Assembly (NCBI RefSeq): GCF_030407815.1 | Contig: NZ_JASDCS010000006.1 | Coordinates: 186,001 to 250,000 of the forward strand | Length of the DNA: 64,000 nt | Source: Psychrobacter sp. APC 3281 | Lineage (GTDB): Bacteria > Pseudomonadota > Gammaproteobacteria > Pseudomonadales > Moraxellaceae | Direction: 5' to 3' | In this document: piece after piece, positions 4,293-29,471 of the stretch | How the letters are laid out: the number at the start of each line of letters is the position of its first letter | Position numbering within the stretch: position 1 is the first letter of the stretch | Notes under the pieces: generated by a model | Seen by the model: the letters and a program-made list of their open reading frames with translations, nothing else | Told to the model about the DNA's origin: nothing | The model's database searches: none | Made by a program: the position numbers and the translations under genes

Positions 4293-5888
4293 ATGGATAT
4301 TATTAGCCACTTGACACGCACCGTCAGCCCAGCCGTATTGGAAGATGACCGTAGCCCAGCTAAGAAAAATCTACTAGAACAGTTTTATGCCATTTTTGCT
4401 GCTCGTCTTGCAGACAACGATACTTTTAGCCGCTTCGCTAATGAAAATATTGCCCGTGATGATAATGCTTTTTATGACCGTGTATGGACAGAAGGAGCAC
4501 ACCGCGACCAAATCTCTCGCGAATTGGCGGGCAAGCATAATGTCGATGCAACCGCTTCACGCGGCCTGATTGCGATGGCAGCGCCATTGGCTTTTCATGA
4601 GATCAAAAGCTTAGCTGGTACCACGCCCGTTCCACAATTTTTGAATGACAATCTGAACAGTTATCAGCATCATATCCCTGCATGGGCGGGTACTGTTTTG
4701 CCTGCTAGTGCGGTCGCTGCCACCTCTACGGCTGGTACATCGATTTCTGATACCACCAGTACAGCACCACTAGAAAAAGAAGAAGAGCCAAAAGAGAGCT
4801 TTATGAAAGCGCTGCTACCCATTATTGGTTTGATTATCCTAGGTGCATTGGCTTGGGCACTACTCAGAGGCTGTCAAGAAAACCCTGAGCCTGTAGCAAC
4901 GCCAGCAGCTACAGTACAGCAAGGGGCGCAAGGTAGTGAGGCACTAGCGGTTGCAGGCGCGATTGAACCTGCATCACTGAGTATCGCAACTGGTGAAAAT
5001 AGCGAGCTGTATGCTTGTCGTATGAGCGTGGGTGATGAGACATTACAAACCAATGTTATGAATGCTTTGACTGGTGCATTTGGTGATGAAGCAAATAAAT
5101 GCCGTGCTGACGTTGATGATAATTTTGCAGTAGATATGCCAGCATCCGCTCAGTTGGCAACGATATTACCAATTATCAAAAATGTACCGAATGCGAGCAT
5201 GATTATCAAAGGCGATAACATTACTGTTAATGCTCCTGATAAAGCTGCATTGGACAAGTTAGTTGCTGATTTACAAGCAGCTGCTCCTGCCATGACCGTG
5301 CAAGCTGAAGGTCCATTAGACCTACAAGGCGAGATTGACGATAGTCTGGCTGCTGCAGATGTGGCGATGACCAATCTGGGCGATAACCCAGATCCACGTG
5401 ATGTTGCTCGCGCTTTAAGTATTCAGGTGATTAACTTCCAAATAGATGAAGCGGTTATACCTGAAGTCAATAAAGCGCTGTTAGACCGTGCTGCAGAAAT
5501 CATTAATAACGTACCTGATATGAAGCTGATGATCGTCGGTCATACAGACAGTCAAGCCTCTGATACCTATAATATGGAGCTGTCTCAGGAGCGTGCTGAG
5601 TCAGTGAAAGCGTATTTAGTGTCTAAAGGGGTTGATACCAGTAAACTAACGACCAAAGGCATGGGCGAATCAGAACCAATCGCGGACAATTCAACTGAAC
5701 AAGGTCGTTTCCGCAATCGCCGTATCGAATTTATGGTCAATGACGAAGTGGTCAGCGCCAATGATGGCATGATGATAAACAGTGATTCGCTAGATCCAGA
5801 TATGAACCCATTAGATAGTAACAATGACGATTTGTTACCAGATGGCGATGATGCTACCCAAGATACTGCGGTAGACCCAAGCAATTAA
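4293..5888 (+). CDS. OmpA family protein with cytoplasmic domain, TM helix and BON-like periplasmic region
   Basis: A 531-residue protein. Residues 1-135 form a helical domain (MDIISHLTRTVSPAV...). A single transmembrane helix (about 173-192) follows a Glu/Lys-rich stretch. Residues 225-350 form a domain with two alpha/beta repeats reminiscent of BON modules and two Cys (YACRMSVG, NKCRADV). Residues about 370-490 are an OmpA C-terminal domain with peptidoglycan-binding signatures GHTDSQASD and FRNRRIEF, carrying the conserved Asp and Arg. It probably links the inner membrane to the peptidoglycan. The acidic tail (about 490-531) is disordered. The BON assignment is an inference. The start is fixed by AGGGGAGAG upstream. 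Confidence 0.82.
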   Translation: MDIISHLTRTVSPAVLEDDRSPAKKNLLEQFYAIFAARLADNDTFSRFANENIARDDNAFYDRVWTEGAHRDQISRELAGKHNVDATASRGLIAMAAPLAFHEIKSLAGTTPVPQFLNDNLNSYQHHIPAWAGTVLPASAVAATSTAGTSISDTTSTAPLEKEEEPKESFMKALLPIIGLIILGALAWALLRGCQENPEPVATPAATVQQGAQGSEALAVAGAIEPASLSIATGENSELYACRMSVGDETLQTNVMNALTGAFGDEANKCRADVDDNFAVDMPASAQLATILPIIKNVPNASMIIKGDNITVNAPDKAALDKLVADLQAAAPAMTVQAEGPLDLQGEIDDSLAAADVAMTNLGDNPDPRDVARALSIQVINFQIDEAVIPEVNKALLDRAAEIINNVPDMKLMIVGHTDSQASDTYNMELSQERAESVKAYLVSKGVDTSKLTTKGMGESEPIADNSTEQGRFRNRRIEFMVNDEVVSANDGMMINSDSLDPDMNPLDSNNDDLLPDGDDATQDTAVDPSN

Positions 5889-5937
5889 TCTATTTGTTCT
5901 TATTTTGATTATGGCTACGCAGTAGTAGTTAAATGAC

Positions 5938-5969
5938 AAAAACCGCATCCTATAAAGGTGCGGTTTTTT
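5938..5969 (+). terminator. Rho-independent terminator
   Basis: An A-rich lead, CCGCATCC, a short loop, GGTGCGG and six T residues follow the OmpA-family gene. The A tract on the other side means it could also serve nagZ, which ends at 6001 on the minus strand. Confidence 0.75.
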
Positions 5970-6000
5970 GCATGCTGCTCGATGATAGTTAAGTAAGCTA

Positions 6001-7077
6001 TTATTTATACAAAGTAGGATCTGTTGATTCTTTAGCAGTCTGACCATCAGCTTGGACATCAAAAAAAGTCTGAGTAACATTTTGCTTGGCTTGCTGCCAG
6101 TATTCAAATTGCTGGCAGGTAGACTCAAGATCGCCTTGCCATGTTGGGATGTTGCCGCGCATGGTTTTGATACGTTGCTGGTTAGGGTAAGGCAGATCTT
6201 GCGCAGCTTTAGCAGCCTCATGAGCAGCCACACGGTCGTTGCACACGAGAGCAATATCACAACCAGCATCAATGGCCGCTTTCACGCGAGCACTGACATC
6301 ACCAGCCGCCTTCGCACCTGCCATCGATAAATCATCAGAGAAAAGTACGCCATCAAATTTAAGCTCATCTCGAATGATATCTTGTAACCAAATTTTGGAG
6401 AATCCTGCTGGCTTGTCGTCTACTTGCGAAAATATCACGTGTGCTGGCATAAGAGCGTCCAGACTATGTAGTGTTTGAGCAAAAGGTTGCATGTCGCTAT
6501 TGATAATCTCATCTAAGCTACGCGTGTCGATGGCTTCTGATACGTGCGAGTCAGGAGCGATGGCACCATGACCGGGGAAGTGTTTACCAGTGGTTGCCAT
6601 ACCAGCCGCTTTCATTCCGCGCATAAACTGTGTTGCAAGCGCAGTGATGGCTTGCGGCTCATGATGAAAGCTGCGATCACCGATGACTTGGCTAATACCA
6701 TCTCTATCCAGTACGGGCGCAAAGCTTAAATCAATTCCTACAGCCAGTACTTCAGCTGCCATCAGATAACCGCAATCGTAGGCGCAGCTAAGTGCTTGAC
6801 TTGGGTCTTGATTGAATAGCTTACCCAGTCGACCCATAGCAGGTAGGGGCGTGAAGCCTTCACGCAGCCTCGCGACTCGTCCACCTTCTTGGTCCACACC
6901 GATAAGTATGTCCTGATTGTGATAACGTATATCGTCGCATAGTGCTCTGACTTGAGCCGCATCTGTGACGTTACGACCAAACAATATTACTCCGCCGACC
7001 TGTGCTTGTTTAATCAAGCTGACATCTTCAGCGGTCAAAGCGGTACTATCGATATCTATCATTAAAACGCCGTACAT
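6001..7077 (-). CDS. nagZ: Beta-N-acetylhexosaminidase NagZ (GH3)
   Basis: A 358-residue cytoplasmic glycoside hydrolase family 3 enzyme that removes N-acetylglucosamine from anhydro-muropeptides during peptidoglycan recycling. Visible motifs are GVDQEGGRV (about 60-68), KHFPGHG (165-171), the mobile-loop dyad Asp176/His178 in APDSHVS, and the nucleophile Asp248 in FSDDLSM. The length is close to E. coli NagZ (341) with a short extra C-terminus. AAGGA about 6 bases before the ATG fixes the start. NagZ products induce AmpC in some bacteria, but no ampR or ampC gene is seen nearby. Confidence 0.96.
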   Translation of the reverse strand: MYGVLMIDIDSTALTAEDVSLIKQAQVGGVILFGRNVTDAAQVRALCDDIRYHNQDILIGVDQEGGRVARLREGFTPLPAMGRLGKLFNQDPSQALSCAYDCGYLMAAEVLAVGIDLSFAPVLDRDGISQVIGDRSFHHEPQAITALATQFMRGMKAAGMATTGKHFPGHGAIAPDSHVSEAIDTRSLDEIINSDMQPFAQTLHSLDALMPAHVIFSQVDDKPAGFSKIWLQDIIRDELKFDGVLFSDDLSMAGAKAAGDVSARVKAAIDAGCDIALVCNDRVAAHEAAKAAQDLPYPNQQRIKTMRGNIPTWQGDLESTCQQFEYWQQAKQNVTQTFFDVQADGQTAKESTDPTLYK

Positions 7078-25479: not shown

Positions 25480-26754
25480 CTACATAAACGGCAGTTTAGT
25501 AAAAATCTGCAATATCGTGGCATTGACGATATCAACAAAGAACGCACCAACCATTGGCACGATCAGGAATGCTTTAGGTGAAGGCAGATAGCGATCAGTG
25601 ACTGCCTGCATGTTCGCAATCGCTGTCGGTGTTGCACCCATACCAAAACCACAATGCCCCGCTGACAATACAGCTGCATCGTAGTCTTTACCCATAATTT
25701 TAAAGGTAATGAGGTAAACGTAGATAATCATAATGATGGTCTGTACAACCAATATAATTAGTACAGGGCCTGCCAAATCGGTCAATTGCCAAAGTTTTAA
25801 AGACAATAATGCCATTGCTAAAAATAGGCTTAAAGAGGCATTACCAAGTACATCAATTGAGCGGTCAAACATATCAAAATTGAAGACCATCGTCAGTACA
25901 TTGCGAATGATGACACCGCCTGCCAGTGCCCATACGAAAGTAGGCAGCTCAAACCATGTACCTTCAGCAACTATGGCCATCACATCGGCAAAAGCCAAAG
26001 CACCTGCGAATAGTGCCAAGGTTTCGATAGTAGAAGAAGCGGTGATAAAGCGCATGCTATCAGGTCTTTCAAAGATATCTTTATTACTACCTGCAGACTC
26101 CTCGTCGTGTTTGGTGCTATATAACGACTGTGCACCAGCAACTTTTTCGATATCGCTAGGATCAGGGTTGGCTGGCGTTGGTTTTAGGCCAAGTCGATTA
26201 ATCAAGCGACGGGCAACAGGACCGCCAACGATACCACCCGCGACCAAACCATAAGTAGCAACCGCAATACCAAGTGTCGTCGCACCGACCACACCATAGT
26301 CTTGTTCTAACGTAATGCCCCAAGCGCCTGCTGTACCGTGACCACCAGTTAGAGCGATAGACCCTGTCACCAGACCGAGCAGAGGATCAAGTCCTAACGC
26401 ACTTGCCATGGCCACACCAACGACATCCTGCAGTACAATAAACACTGAAACAACGATAGTAAAAATTAGTAATGGTGTGCCGCCTGCTTTTAGCCTACTA
26501 AAATCAGCGCTCAGACCGATGGAGGCAAAGAACATCAACATGGTGGCGGTCTGTAGTCCTTGATGAAAGTTAAAACTATATCCCCAAACCATATTGAGAG
26601 CATAGACAACAATCGCTGCGACCAAACCACCAGCAACAGGTTCTGGAATATTAAAGTCTTCTAAAAACTTGACTCTCCGCACCAAAAACCGCCCAAGCAG
26701 CAGCACTAAGGTGGCCAATATCAGGGTGTAATAACCGTTTAAGGTAATCTCCAT
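25480..26754 (-). CDS. gltS: Sodium/glutamate symporter GltS
   Basis: A 424-residue inner-membrane ESS-family glutamate:Na+ symporter with two inverted sets of helices. The N-terminus MEITLNGYYTLILATLVLLLGR is typical, as are FNIPEPVAGG, TGGHGTAGAWG in the first reentrant loop and GHCGFGMGATPTAIANMQ in the second. A hydrophilic loop (about 195-240) sits between the halves. Length is near E. coli GltS (401). AAAGGA precedes the ATG. The window also encodes a glutamate/aspartate ABC system (44-47.6 kb), so the cell has two glutamate import routes. Confidence 0.95.
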   Translation of the reverse strand: MEITLNGYYTLILATLVLLLGRFLVRRVKFLEDFNIPEPVAGGLVAAIVVYALNMVWGYSFNFHQGLQTATMLMFFASIGLSADFSRLKAGGTPLLIFTIVVSVFIVLQDVVGVAMASALGLDPLLGLVTGSIALTGGHGTAGAWGITLEQDYGVVGATTLGIAVATYGLVAGGIVGGPVARRLINRLGLKPTPANPDPSDIEKVAGAQSLYSTKHDEESAGSNKDIFERPDSMRFITASSTIETLALFAGALAFADVMAIVAEGTWFELPTFVWALAGGVIIRNVLTMVFNFDMFDRSIDVLGNASLSLFLAMALLSLKLWQLTDLAGPVLIILVVQTIIMIIYVYLITFKIMGKDYDAAVLSAGHCGFGMGATPTAIANMQAVTDRYLPSPKAFLIVPMVGAFFVDIVNATILQIFTKLPFM

Positions 26755-26892: not shown

Positions 26893-27312
26893 CTAAATCT
26901 CTAACGCATAAGCTTCATCCTCAGATGGCACGATGATCCACAATTGTGGTTTGCCAAATTCTCTAAAGGCATCCTCAATGATGCTTTTAAAGACATTGAA
27001 GTCCTCAGTGTTTATCTTCTTAACGTCTGTCAAATCCAGCCTTAAATGAATTGCATCACTGTCTGTTAGACAATCCCATGCACTGTCCCAGTTGTGTGAA
27101 AAATAACTAGGAAAGTCACAGGCCTTGCCTAAACTCGTCAATAGCTCAGTTTTTTCGAGCGTGTCACCTACGGCTATAGTAACAGCCTGCGCAGGAATGC
27201 TAGTACCCAGTGCTGTACCGTTTTGGTTAATGTGGTCTTGATTCACGTGGCTTTGATTAACGTAGTGGATTGCTTGGTTTATACTTTCTCGATTCATATC
27301 AGCTTTTTTCAT
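26893..27312 (-). CDS. Barstar-family ribonuclease inhibitor (immunity protein)
   Basis: A 139-residue cytoplasmic protein without signal peptide. The family core spans about residues 45-139: FPSYFSHNWDSAWDCLTD matches the barstar helix that blocks the RNase active site, with both acidic residues equivalent to barstar Asp35 and Asp39 kept, and the C-terminal strand LWIIVPSEDEAYALEI. The N-terminal 35 residues are an unusual Asn/Gln/His-rich repeat (HVNQDHINQN). The ATG at 27312 is one base beyond the stop codon (27314-27316) of the upstream RNase fusion, with AGGTG inside that gene's end as ribosome site. Tight coupling indicates it neutralises that RNase. Barstar is known to inhibit both barnase and RNase Sa. 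Confidence 0.9.
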   Translation of the reverse strand: MKKADMNRESINQAIHYVNQSHVNQDHINQNGTALGTSIPAQAVTIAVGDTLEKTELLTSLGKACDFPSYFSHNWDSAWDCLTDSDAIHLRLDLTDVKKINTEDFNVFKSIIEDAFREFGKPQLWIIVPSEDEAYALEI

Positions 27313-27313
27313 A

Positions 27314-28048
27314 TTAAGGCACCTGTAGTCTTTGGAAGCTATCATAATGGTCGACAGTCAAGTAATAGACGGTAGGCGGATTACCACCTGTGACGATACG
27401 CCGTGCGCCGCGATGAGAGACACCAGGAGTGGGCACGGTATATTCATGGTAGTAGCCTTGCGACTGAGCGGGTAGTCTGCCTTCACGATTATAAAACGTT
27501 GTGCCATCTTTATTTGGATATGGAAACGGGCCGCCTTGCTGAATAAGCGCAATCGTATTATCGACCTGTGCGTCACCTGTTATTCCTGATACTGCGGCCT
27601 GGCTCGTATTATTAGTGACGTCCTGCGATACCGTTGTCGACTCGATGCTATCAGCAAGCAATGTCGAATTTAAATCGCCAAAGAAATAGAAAGCGATGGC
27701 AATTATAGCGATAAGGCTAAATAGCGTAGAGCCTAAGCTTCTTTTATTGGGTCTGCTACGATTTGAGTTACGAGTGCTGTGATGGCTATTAGTATTAGCA
27801 GGTGTATAGCTTGGAACATCTGATGCAGTATCTTGTTCAAGGCTCAATGAAGACGAGGTCACTTCAGTGGCTCTCAATTGGTTTTTGTCGTTACGGGCAC
27901 TGTTAAAGTAGACACTTTGACCAACCGTTATAGGTTTCGCCAGTCTTGCTTTGCTAATATGAAAGAACACATCTTCATTTTGATTGTCTACATCGATAAA
28001 GCCATAGCCTTTATCTTCGTTCCAGTGCTTAATCTTGCCACTTTGCAT
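27314..28048 (-). CDS. Cold-shock domain / transmembrane / RNase Sa-like ribonuclease fusion
   Basis: A 244-residue three-part protein. Residues 1-65 are a cold-shock domain with RNP1 KGYGFIDV (13-20) and RNP2 DVFFHIS (26-32). A Ser/Asn/Arg linker with basic residues (93-103) leads to one transmembrane helix (about 107-123); the positive-inside rule puts the cold-shock domain in the cytoplasm. Residues about 160-244 match Streptomyces RNase Sa: GGPFPYPNKDG, YYHEYTVPTPG, HRGARRIVTGG and VDHYDSFQ, keeping catalytic Glu202, Arg213, Arg217 and His234. The Cys pair of RNase Sa is absent. The RNase would lie in the periplasm. The barstar gene follows with one base between stop and start. Roles are inferred. 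Confidence 0.87.
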   Translation of the reverse strand: MQSGKIKHWNEDKGYGFIDVDNQNEDVFFHISKARLAKPITVGQSVYFNSARNDKNQLRATEVTSSSLSLEQDTASDVPSYTPANTNSHHSTRNSNRSRPNKRSLGSTLFSLIAIIAIAFYFFGDLNSTLLADSIESTTVSQDVTNNTSQAAVSGITGDAQVDNTIALIQQGGPFPYPNKDGTTFYNREGRLPAQSQGYYHEYTVPTPGVSHRGARRIVTGGNPPTVYYLTVDHYDSFQRLQVP

Positions 28049-28106: not shown

Positions 28107-28136
28107 AGAAACGCCAGCATAATTGCTGACGTTTCT
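28107..28136 (-). terminator. Hairpin terminator of proA
   Basis: Arms 28107-28119 and 28124-28136 pair over 13 bp with one mismatch; on the minus strand a weak T-rich tail follows. It separates proA from the RNase/barstar operon. Confidence 0.6.
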
Positions 28137-28169: not shown

Positions 28170-29471
28170 TTAAGCACGGGTTTCGCCATGACCATAAACA
28201 ATCCATTTTTGTGAAGTCAGACCTTCGAGACCGACAGGACCACGGGCATGGATTTTGTCCGTTGAGATACCAATCTCAGCACCGAGACCGTATTCAAAAC
28301 CATCAGCAAAACGGCTAGAAGCGTTAATCATAACGCTGGCCGAGTCCACTTCACGGATGAAGCGCTGCGACTTGGTATAGTTATCAGTGATGATGACATC
28401 GGTATGATGGCTGCCGTGCGTATTGATATGTTCAATCGCCTCATCAATACCTGCGACCACTTTTACCGCTAGGATAGGGGCTAGGTATTCAGTATCCCAA
28501 TCCTCAGAAGTGGCAGCTGATAGATGACCTTTAAGCTTAGCATTGTCATTTAGGATAGCTTGTGATTTGTCATCAAGGCGTAGTTGCATTGCGTCATCAG
28601 CATCGACAATGGCTTCTGCAATTTTAGGTAATAGCTTATCTGCGACTGTTTCATCGACCAGTAGCGTCTCCATCGTATTACAAGTGCCGTAGCGATGTGT
28701 TTTGGCATTGACACTGACCTTAATCGCAATCTCAGGATCCGCATCACTATCAATAAAGGTATGGCAATTACCATCTAAATGCTTAATCACAGGTACTTTT
28801 GCATCGTTGCTGATACGCGCAATCAGACCTTTACCACCACGTGGCACGATGACATCGACATATTCAGTCATGGTAATCAGCTCACCAACGGCTGCACGAT
28901 CGGTCGTCTGTAGCACTTGCACGCTATATTCCGATAGGTCAGTATGGCTAAGACCTTTAATGATACATTTAGCAATGGCTTGGTTAGATTCAAATGCTTC
29001 AGAACCACCGCGCAAAATAATGGCGTTGCCTGATTTGAGCGCCAATGAGGCAGCCTCTAAAGTCACGTTAGGGCGCGACTCATAAATCATACCAACCACA
29101 CCAAGTGGCACTCGCATTTTGCCCAAATGAATACCTGATGGCTGATAGGTCATGTCAGTGACTTCACCGATTGGGTCAGGAAGGCCAGCGACATCTTTAA
29201 GTCCTTGTAGCATACCGTTAAATCGTGCCTCGTTCAGCTCCAAACGATCGAGGAGTGCGCTATCAAGATTGTTTTTTTGACCGTTGTCCATATCGATTTT
29301 ATTGGCAGCCAAGATGTCTTGTTTGGCATTGACCAGTTCATCATGAATGGCTAATAGTGCTGAATTTTTATCGCCAGTGTTGGCAGCAGCCAGTGCACGA
29401 GAAGCAGTTCTTGCTTGCTTGCCGACAGACTGCATATAGGTCGTAATATCCGTAGTATTCGATTGACTCAT
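28170..29471 (-). CDS. proA: Glutamate-5-semialdehyde dehydrogenase (gamma-glutamyl phosphate reductase)
   Basis: A 433-residue cytoplasmic enzyme reducing gamma-glutamyl phosphate with NADPH in proline synthesis. Motifs: [45 protein letters not shown], and the catalytic-Cys region [16 protein letters not shown], then the C-terminal signature [18 protein letters not shown]. Slightly longer than E. coli ProA (417). AAGGA precedes the ATG. proB is not adjacent, and the RNase/barstar pair lies downstream behind a hairpin. Confidence 0.97.

Follow-up and report, generated by a model that had tools for sequence, protein, structure and literature searches.

Barnase and barstar are among the best studied of all protein pairs, and the natural role of simple pairs of this kind is, to our knowledge, hardly known. 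A locus in the window, the 64,000-nucleotide stretch of Psychrobacter DNA analysed here, raises the question in a particular form: what would an RNase of this general kind do at the end of a membrane protein that begins with a cold-shock domain, and what would a neighbouring barstar gene do for it? The fusion gene occupies positions 27314..28048 of the minus strand and encodes 244 amino acids. The barstar gene (26893..27312, minus strand; 139 amino acids) starts one nucleotide after its stop codon.

A preliminary description of the sequence had read the larger protein as a cold-shock domain joined through a membrane helix to an RNase Sa-like domain. This composition is borne out, and the profile searches proposed for the cold-shock, RNase and barstar parts all gave Pfam-A matches above the gathering cut-offs. 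The cold-shock domain (residues 1-65; 27854..28048, minus strand) matches PF00313 (CSD) over residues 3-65 with an E value of 2e-12. The RNase Sa-like domain (residues 159-244; 27317..27574, minus strand) is identified by a match to PF00545 (Ribonuclease) over residues 147-241, with an E value of 4e-22 and 78.9 bits against a gathering score of 24. Between the two lie a basic, low-complexity and variable linker that is predicted to be cytoplasmic (residues 66-103; 27740..27853, minus strand) and the only strong hydrophobic segment of the protein, which can be read as a single transmembrane helix or signal anchor (residues 104-126; 27671..27739, minus strand).

The RNase domain belongs to the RNase Sa (PF00545) family by both sequence and fold. 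Its nearest solved structures are RNases Sa3, Sa2 and Sa, with E values from 6e-25 (Sa3) to 1e-20. The HMMER alignment pairs Glu202, Arg213, Arg217 and His234 of the fusion with Glu54, Arg65, Arg69 and His85 of RNase Sa, so that the catalytic residues named in the preliminary description were correctly numbered and all find their counterparts; Arg188 is likewise paired with Arg40. All four catalytic residues are invariant in an alignment of 49 distinct full-length fusions, which were extracted as frames from the loci of relatives. When the RNase domain was modeled alone with AF2 (pLDDT 81.9), the model matched RNase Sa with a Z score of 11.9 (84 residues, rmsd 2.0 A); its Z scores against barnase were 7-8.6. 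The AF2 model of the full-length fusion was of low confidence (pLDDT 50.8) and was left out of the interpretation.

The barstar match (PF01337) has an E value of about 1e-10. Tyr70, Asn74, Asp76, Trp79 and Asp80 of the window protein align with Tyr29, Asn33, Asp35, Trp38 and Asp39 of barstar, which we take to be its inhibitory or interface residues. Among 53 distinct barstars, Asn74, Asp76, Trp79 and Asp80 are invariant, and these include both of the acidic residues that had been picked out earlier. The spacing of one nucleotide between the fusion stop codon and the barstar ATG is retained in nearly all loci inspected, while a longer barstar reading frame starting at 27345 is specific to one clade and not kept generally. 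The genome from which the window comes also has a second barstar-like frame of 106 amino acids (G000:C22:274938-275075), with a partial profile match and away from any PF00545 gene; it is possibly an orphan inhibitor.

Could the fusion simply be two genes joined by a sequencing artefact and absent from relatives, as the preliminary description had allowed? An uninterrupted frame is present in 49 distinct sequences, which rules out such a joining, and the fusion is found in most sampled genomes of Psychrobacter, the genus in which named relatives at 91-94% identity also place the window. Invariant positions in these sequences make up 48 of 86 in the RNase domain, 25 of 65 in the cold-shock domain and none in either linker. 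The Nei-Gojobori method, applied to 129 close pairs that are not independent of one another, gives a dN/dS of 0.033 in the RNase domain, 0.036 in the helix and 0.052 in the cold-shock domain, against about 0.43 in each of the two linkers. Purifying selection thus holds both domains and the helix to a similar degree.

The arrangement of the protein in the membrane can be predicted from the same alignment. The hydrophobic segment lies at residues 105-123, with a 19-residue mean hydropathy of 2.21 against 0.84 for the next best segment, and has a short core of about 15 residues. The 30 residues before the helix carry a net charge of +3 to +9 (mean +6.3) and the 30 residues after it a charge of -5 to 0 (mean -3.0), and the charge before exceeds the charge after in 49 of the 49 sequences. 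By the positive-inside rule, this asymmetry would leave the cold-shock domain on the cytoplasmic side and the RNase domain on the periplasmic side. The predicted topology, which has charge and hydropathy as its whole basis, agrees with the split across the membrane proposed earlier. Cleavage by signal peptidase after the helix is possible.

The cold-shock domain is more difficult to assign a role. It had been described as a domain of the cytoplasmic type in which the motifs RNP1 and RNP2 are visible. The motifs are indeed present (KGYGFI and VFFHI), largely conserved among relatives and supported by the profile match, but they are slightly atypical. Most residues for nucleic acid contact are kept, and K7, K13, F17, F28 and H30 are conserved; the position of CspB Trp8 is occupied by His with a Trp immediately following. 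Natural variants of the domain were also found. In one Psychrobacter genome (G020; L172/L020) it has been cleanly deleted in frame, with MQSGK joined to the linker and with helix, RNase and barstar retained. In two others an in-frame stop (L044/L081) or a frameshift (L045/L083) cuts it off from helix and RNase, with RNase and barstar intact; either of these two could be a sequencing error. The deletion and the two separations argue that the cold-shock domain is dispensable in those lineages, while the purifying selection argues that it is no passive leftover in most others. The best reading is that it is a selected cytosolic accessory and that the RNase/barstar core can persist without it. Most likely, although this is a guess, the domain binds nucleic acid close to the membrane, either RNA or single-stranded DNA. 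It may help to keep the nascent chain, or the message that encodes it, there; alternatively, it may bind nucleic acid at the inner face of the membrane.

The pair resides at one fixed chromosomal locus among housekeeping genes, with proA upstream (28170..29471, minus strand) and a gltS-like glutamate symporter gene downstream (25480..26754, minus strand). Between proA and the fusion gene is a hairpin, AACGTCAGC...GCTGGCGTT (28107..28136, minus strand), that is conserved together with a T-run in most relatives and is probably the proA terminator; a generic promoter and terminator scan, which did no better on the locus than on shuffled sequences, did not flag it. When the upstream regions of relatives were aligned in search of a regulatory motif, conservation was seen chiefly in the hairpin and at the ribosome-binding site. 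A TATAAT sequence lies just upstream of the hairpin in many relatives, which suggests that the message may begin with the hairpin; the window lacks it. Phage records and viral contigs gave no match to the fusion, and the plasmid matches, apart from one to the cold-shock domain, were distant, came from other genera and covered the RNase domain only. These results argue against a mobile or phage origin.

How widely is this arrangement distributed? PF00545 was found in 79 of 100 Psychrobacter genomes, a count that includes one (G094) in which PF00545 and barstar belong to a CdiA-like locus rather than to the fusion. Barstar was found in the same 79, and the remaining 21 have neither. From this perfect co-occurrence we infer that the window barstar inhibits the neighboring RNase domain. 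Nearly all of the RNase loci examined in Psychrobacter encode the fusion of cold-shock domain, helix and RNase. Among 299 genomes of the family, matches were confined to Psychrobacter and a single genome of another genus (G139), which encodes a plain RNase homologue, short and exported, followed by barstar. The PF00545 proteins of other Proteobacteria are mostly short exported RNases as well, usually with barstar downstream, and we therefore take an exported RNase with a cytoplasmic inhibitor to be the common state. The identical fusion arrangement does occur in two genomes of another gammaproteobacterial order (G512 and G822), and in a tree of the RNase domain (87 columns) these fusions group near Psychrobacter with weak support. 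One of them (G822; L193, fusion at 5454-6131) has an intact fusion with a tRNA-like sequence directly behind its stop codon and no barstar detectable anywhere in the genome. An intact fusion in such a genome is easier to understand if the RNase lies outside the cytoplasm.

Where the pair is missing from Psychrobacter, proA and gltS are often adjacent with a short gap between them. Several such loci retain barstar remnants (L169, L171 and L175; E 7e-11 to 5e-5), and there are weaker remnants of the RNase 3' end (L169, L174 and L173), which rest mainly on position (E 0.03 to 4). The empty sites and the remnants in several species argue that the pair is an old resident that decays repeatedly. The literature search, to which subscription journals were mostly inaccessible, found no paper naming barstar together with Psychrobacter and none describing such a fusion. 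To judge from this search, the apparently anchored RNase fused to a cold-shock domain and accompanied by barstar is a so far undescribed form of the barnase/barstar pair, present in most Psychrobacter sampled.

On balance, we think it probable, with real room for error, that the locus encodes a periplasmic guanyl-specific RNase anchored in the inner membrane, with a cytoplasmic barstar as safeguard and the cold-shock domain as a selected cytosolic accessory. The cold-shock domain and basic linker would remain in the cytoplasm, one helix would span the inner membrane, and the RNase Sa domain would fold in the periplasm, where it could cleave single-stranded RNA entering or leaking into that compartment, either for scavenging or for clearance. 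Barstar, one base downstream and probably translated from the fusion's own message, would stay in the cytoplasm and block those RNase domains that had not been exported, as in the classical barnase/barstar system. It is also conceivable, though unlikely, that the internal hydrophobic segment acts as a signal peptide and is cleaved, which would free the RNase into the periplasm or medium for a role like that of barnase or RNase Sa and leave the cold-shock domain and a stub in the cell. The shortness of the hydrophobic core, with polar residues following it (and Leu-Leu-Ala in the window), is in keeping with such cleavage, as is the prevalence of short exported RNases among relatives elsewhere. 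However, the sequence that follows the helix is variable, with no clear signal-peptidase motif retained, the helix itself is as strongly constrained as described above, and a stretch of 100 residues with a folded domain would be an unusual prelude to a signal peptide. Control of placement or activity by the cold-shock domain had been suggested in the preliminary description; the domain is under selection, but its deletion in one lineage and its separation in two others left RNase and barstar in place. Rather improbable, in our judgment, is a coupling across the membrane, in which the cytoplasmic cold-shock domain, on binding RNA or single-stranded DNA, would change where the periplasmic RNase sits or how active it is, or the influence would run the other way, while barstar guards the cytoplasm. 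If it were true, a single protein would read nucleic acid on one face of the inner membrane and cut it on the other.

The order of the genes, toxin before immunity, recalls a weapon of competition, contact-dependent or released on lysis, with barstar as the immunity protein; a contact-dependent or release-activated toxin had in fact been suggested in the preliminary description. Barnase-like domains and barstar are used in polymorphic toxins (PMC3482391), and the CdiA-like protein mentioned above is a Psychrobacter example with a PF00545 tip. Several properties of the fusion nevertheless make this role very unlikely. A module for delivery or export is absent, CSD and Ribonuclease being the only Pfam domains above the cut-off. 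Polymorphism is also lacking, as the RNase domain is 82-100% identical within the genus and the barstar interface is invariant. The locus is fixed and decays gradually, leaving relics in several species, and the phage and plasmid searches point in the same direction. The low variation fits a published account (PMC3482391) in which barnase/barstar pairs of the simple type may represent an incipient toxin-immunity order and show no notable polymorphism. The fusion of a selected cold-shock domain to the RNase, and the strict co-occurrence with barstar, might instead suggest an RNA-sensing suicide system, in which an RNase facing the cytoplasm is held by barstar and set free under the control of the cold-shock domain, for instance on phage attack or in the cold. 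We give this little credence, since the charge asymmetry places the RNase outside, one intact fusion lacks a detectable barstar, and one lineage has deleted the cold-shock domain and yet kept the RNase. The neighbors are housekeeping genes rather than a defence island, and a defence system was rejected as a class because PADLOC yields only a generic cold-shock profile.

If the anchored periplasmic enzyme is the correct reading, most of a Gram-negative genus keeps an anchored RNase that is linked through the membrane to a nucleic-acid-binding domain on the other side. The natural variants, with the cold-shock domain deleted or split off, or with barstar missing in another order, offer a direct way to test what each part does.

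Comparison with known systems places the locus near several of them. The RNases Sa, Sa2 and Sa3 of Streptomyces, guanyl-specific enzymes of PF00545, are about 50% identical in the catalytic domain and share its fold and its Glu/Arg/Arg/His set, and one solved entry (PDB 1ay7) contains both RNase Sa and barstar. The Streptomyces RNases are plain secreted enzymes, however, whereas the Psychrobacter RNase forms the C-terminus of a membrane protein that also carries a cold-shock domain. The Bacillus barnase-barstar pair is alike in its exported RNase, its cytoplasmic barstar and the Asp35/Asp39 pair, but differs in that the Psychrobacter genes are adjacent (1 nt apart) and the RNase belongs to the Sa branch, apparently anchored and provided with a cytoplasmic cold-shock domain. 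In place of the cleavable N-terminal signal peptide of the classical free RNase, the hydrophobic segment is internal and lies behind a folded domain. The earlier view that this is a different arrangement from a secreted RNase with a cytoplasmic inhibitor thus holds. Closer in sequence are the plain pairs of other Proteobacteria (e.g. L088, L098 and L106), with RNases 47-66% identical and barstar downstream in most, but these RNases have only a short signal or anchor and no cold-shock domain.

The CdiA-type protein of G094 also ends in a PF00545 domain and is followed by a barstar-like gene, but it has a large haemagglutinin-like carrier, a divergent RNase, a weak barstar match and an unrelated locus. 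Its frame of 1469 amino acids (L192; G094:C1:3104000-3110000) is found in a genome without the fusion and probably encodes a contact-dependent toxin with its immunity protein. A similar cold-shock domain and helix precede a Cys-rich, zinc-ribbon-like C-terminus at two further loci (L128 and L131). Within Psychrobacter, a paralogue (e.g. L021) has the same N-terminal plan as the fusion, with a KxW-type cold-shock domain, a basic linker and a helix, and shares the His at the CspB Trp8 position followed by Trp, but it ends in a DUF1294-like membrane domain (recognized by eye rather than by profile) instead of an RNase. The cold-shock domain with its helix looks like a reusable membrane module, and the fusion is another sign of it.
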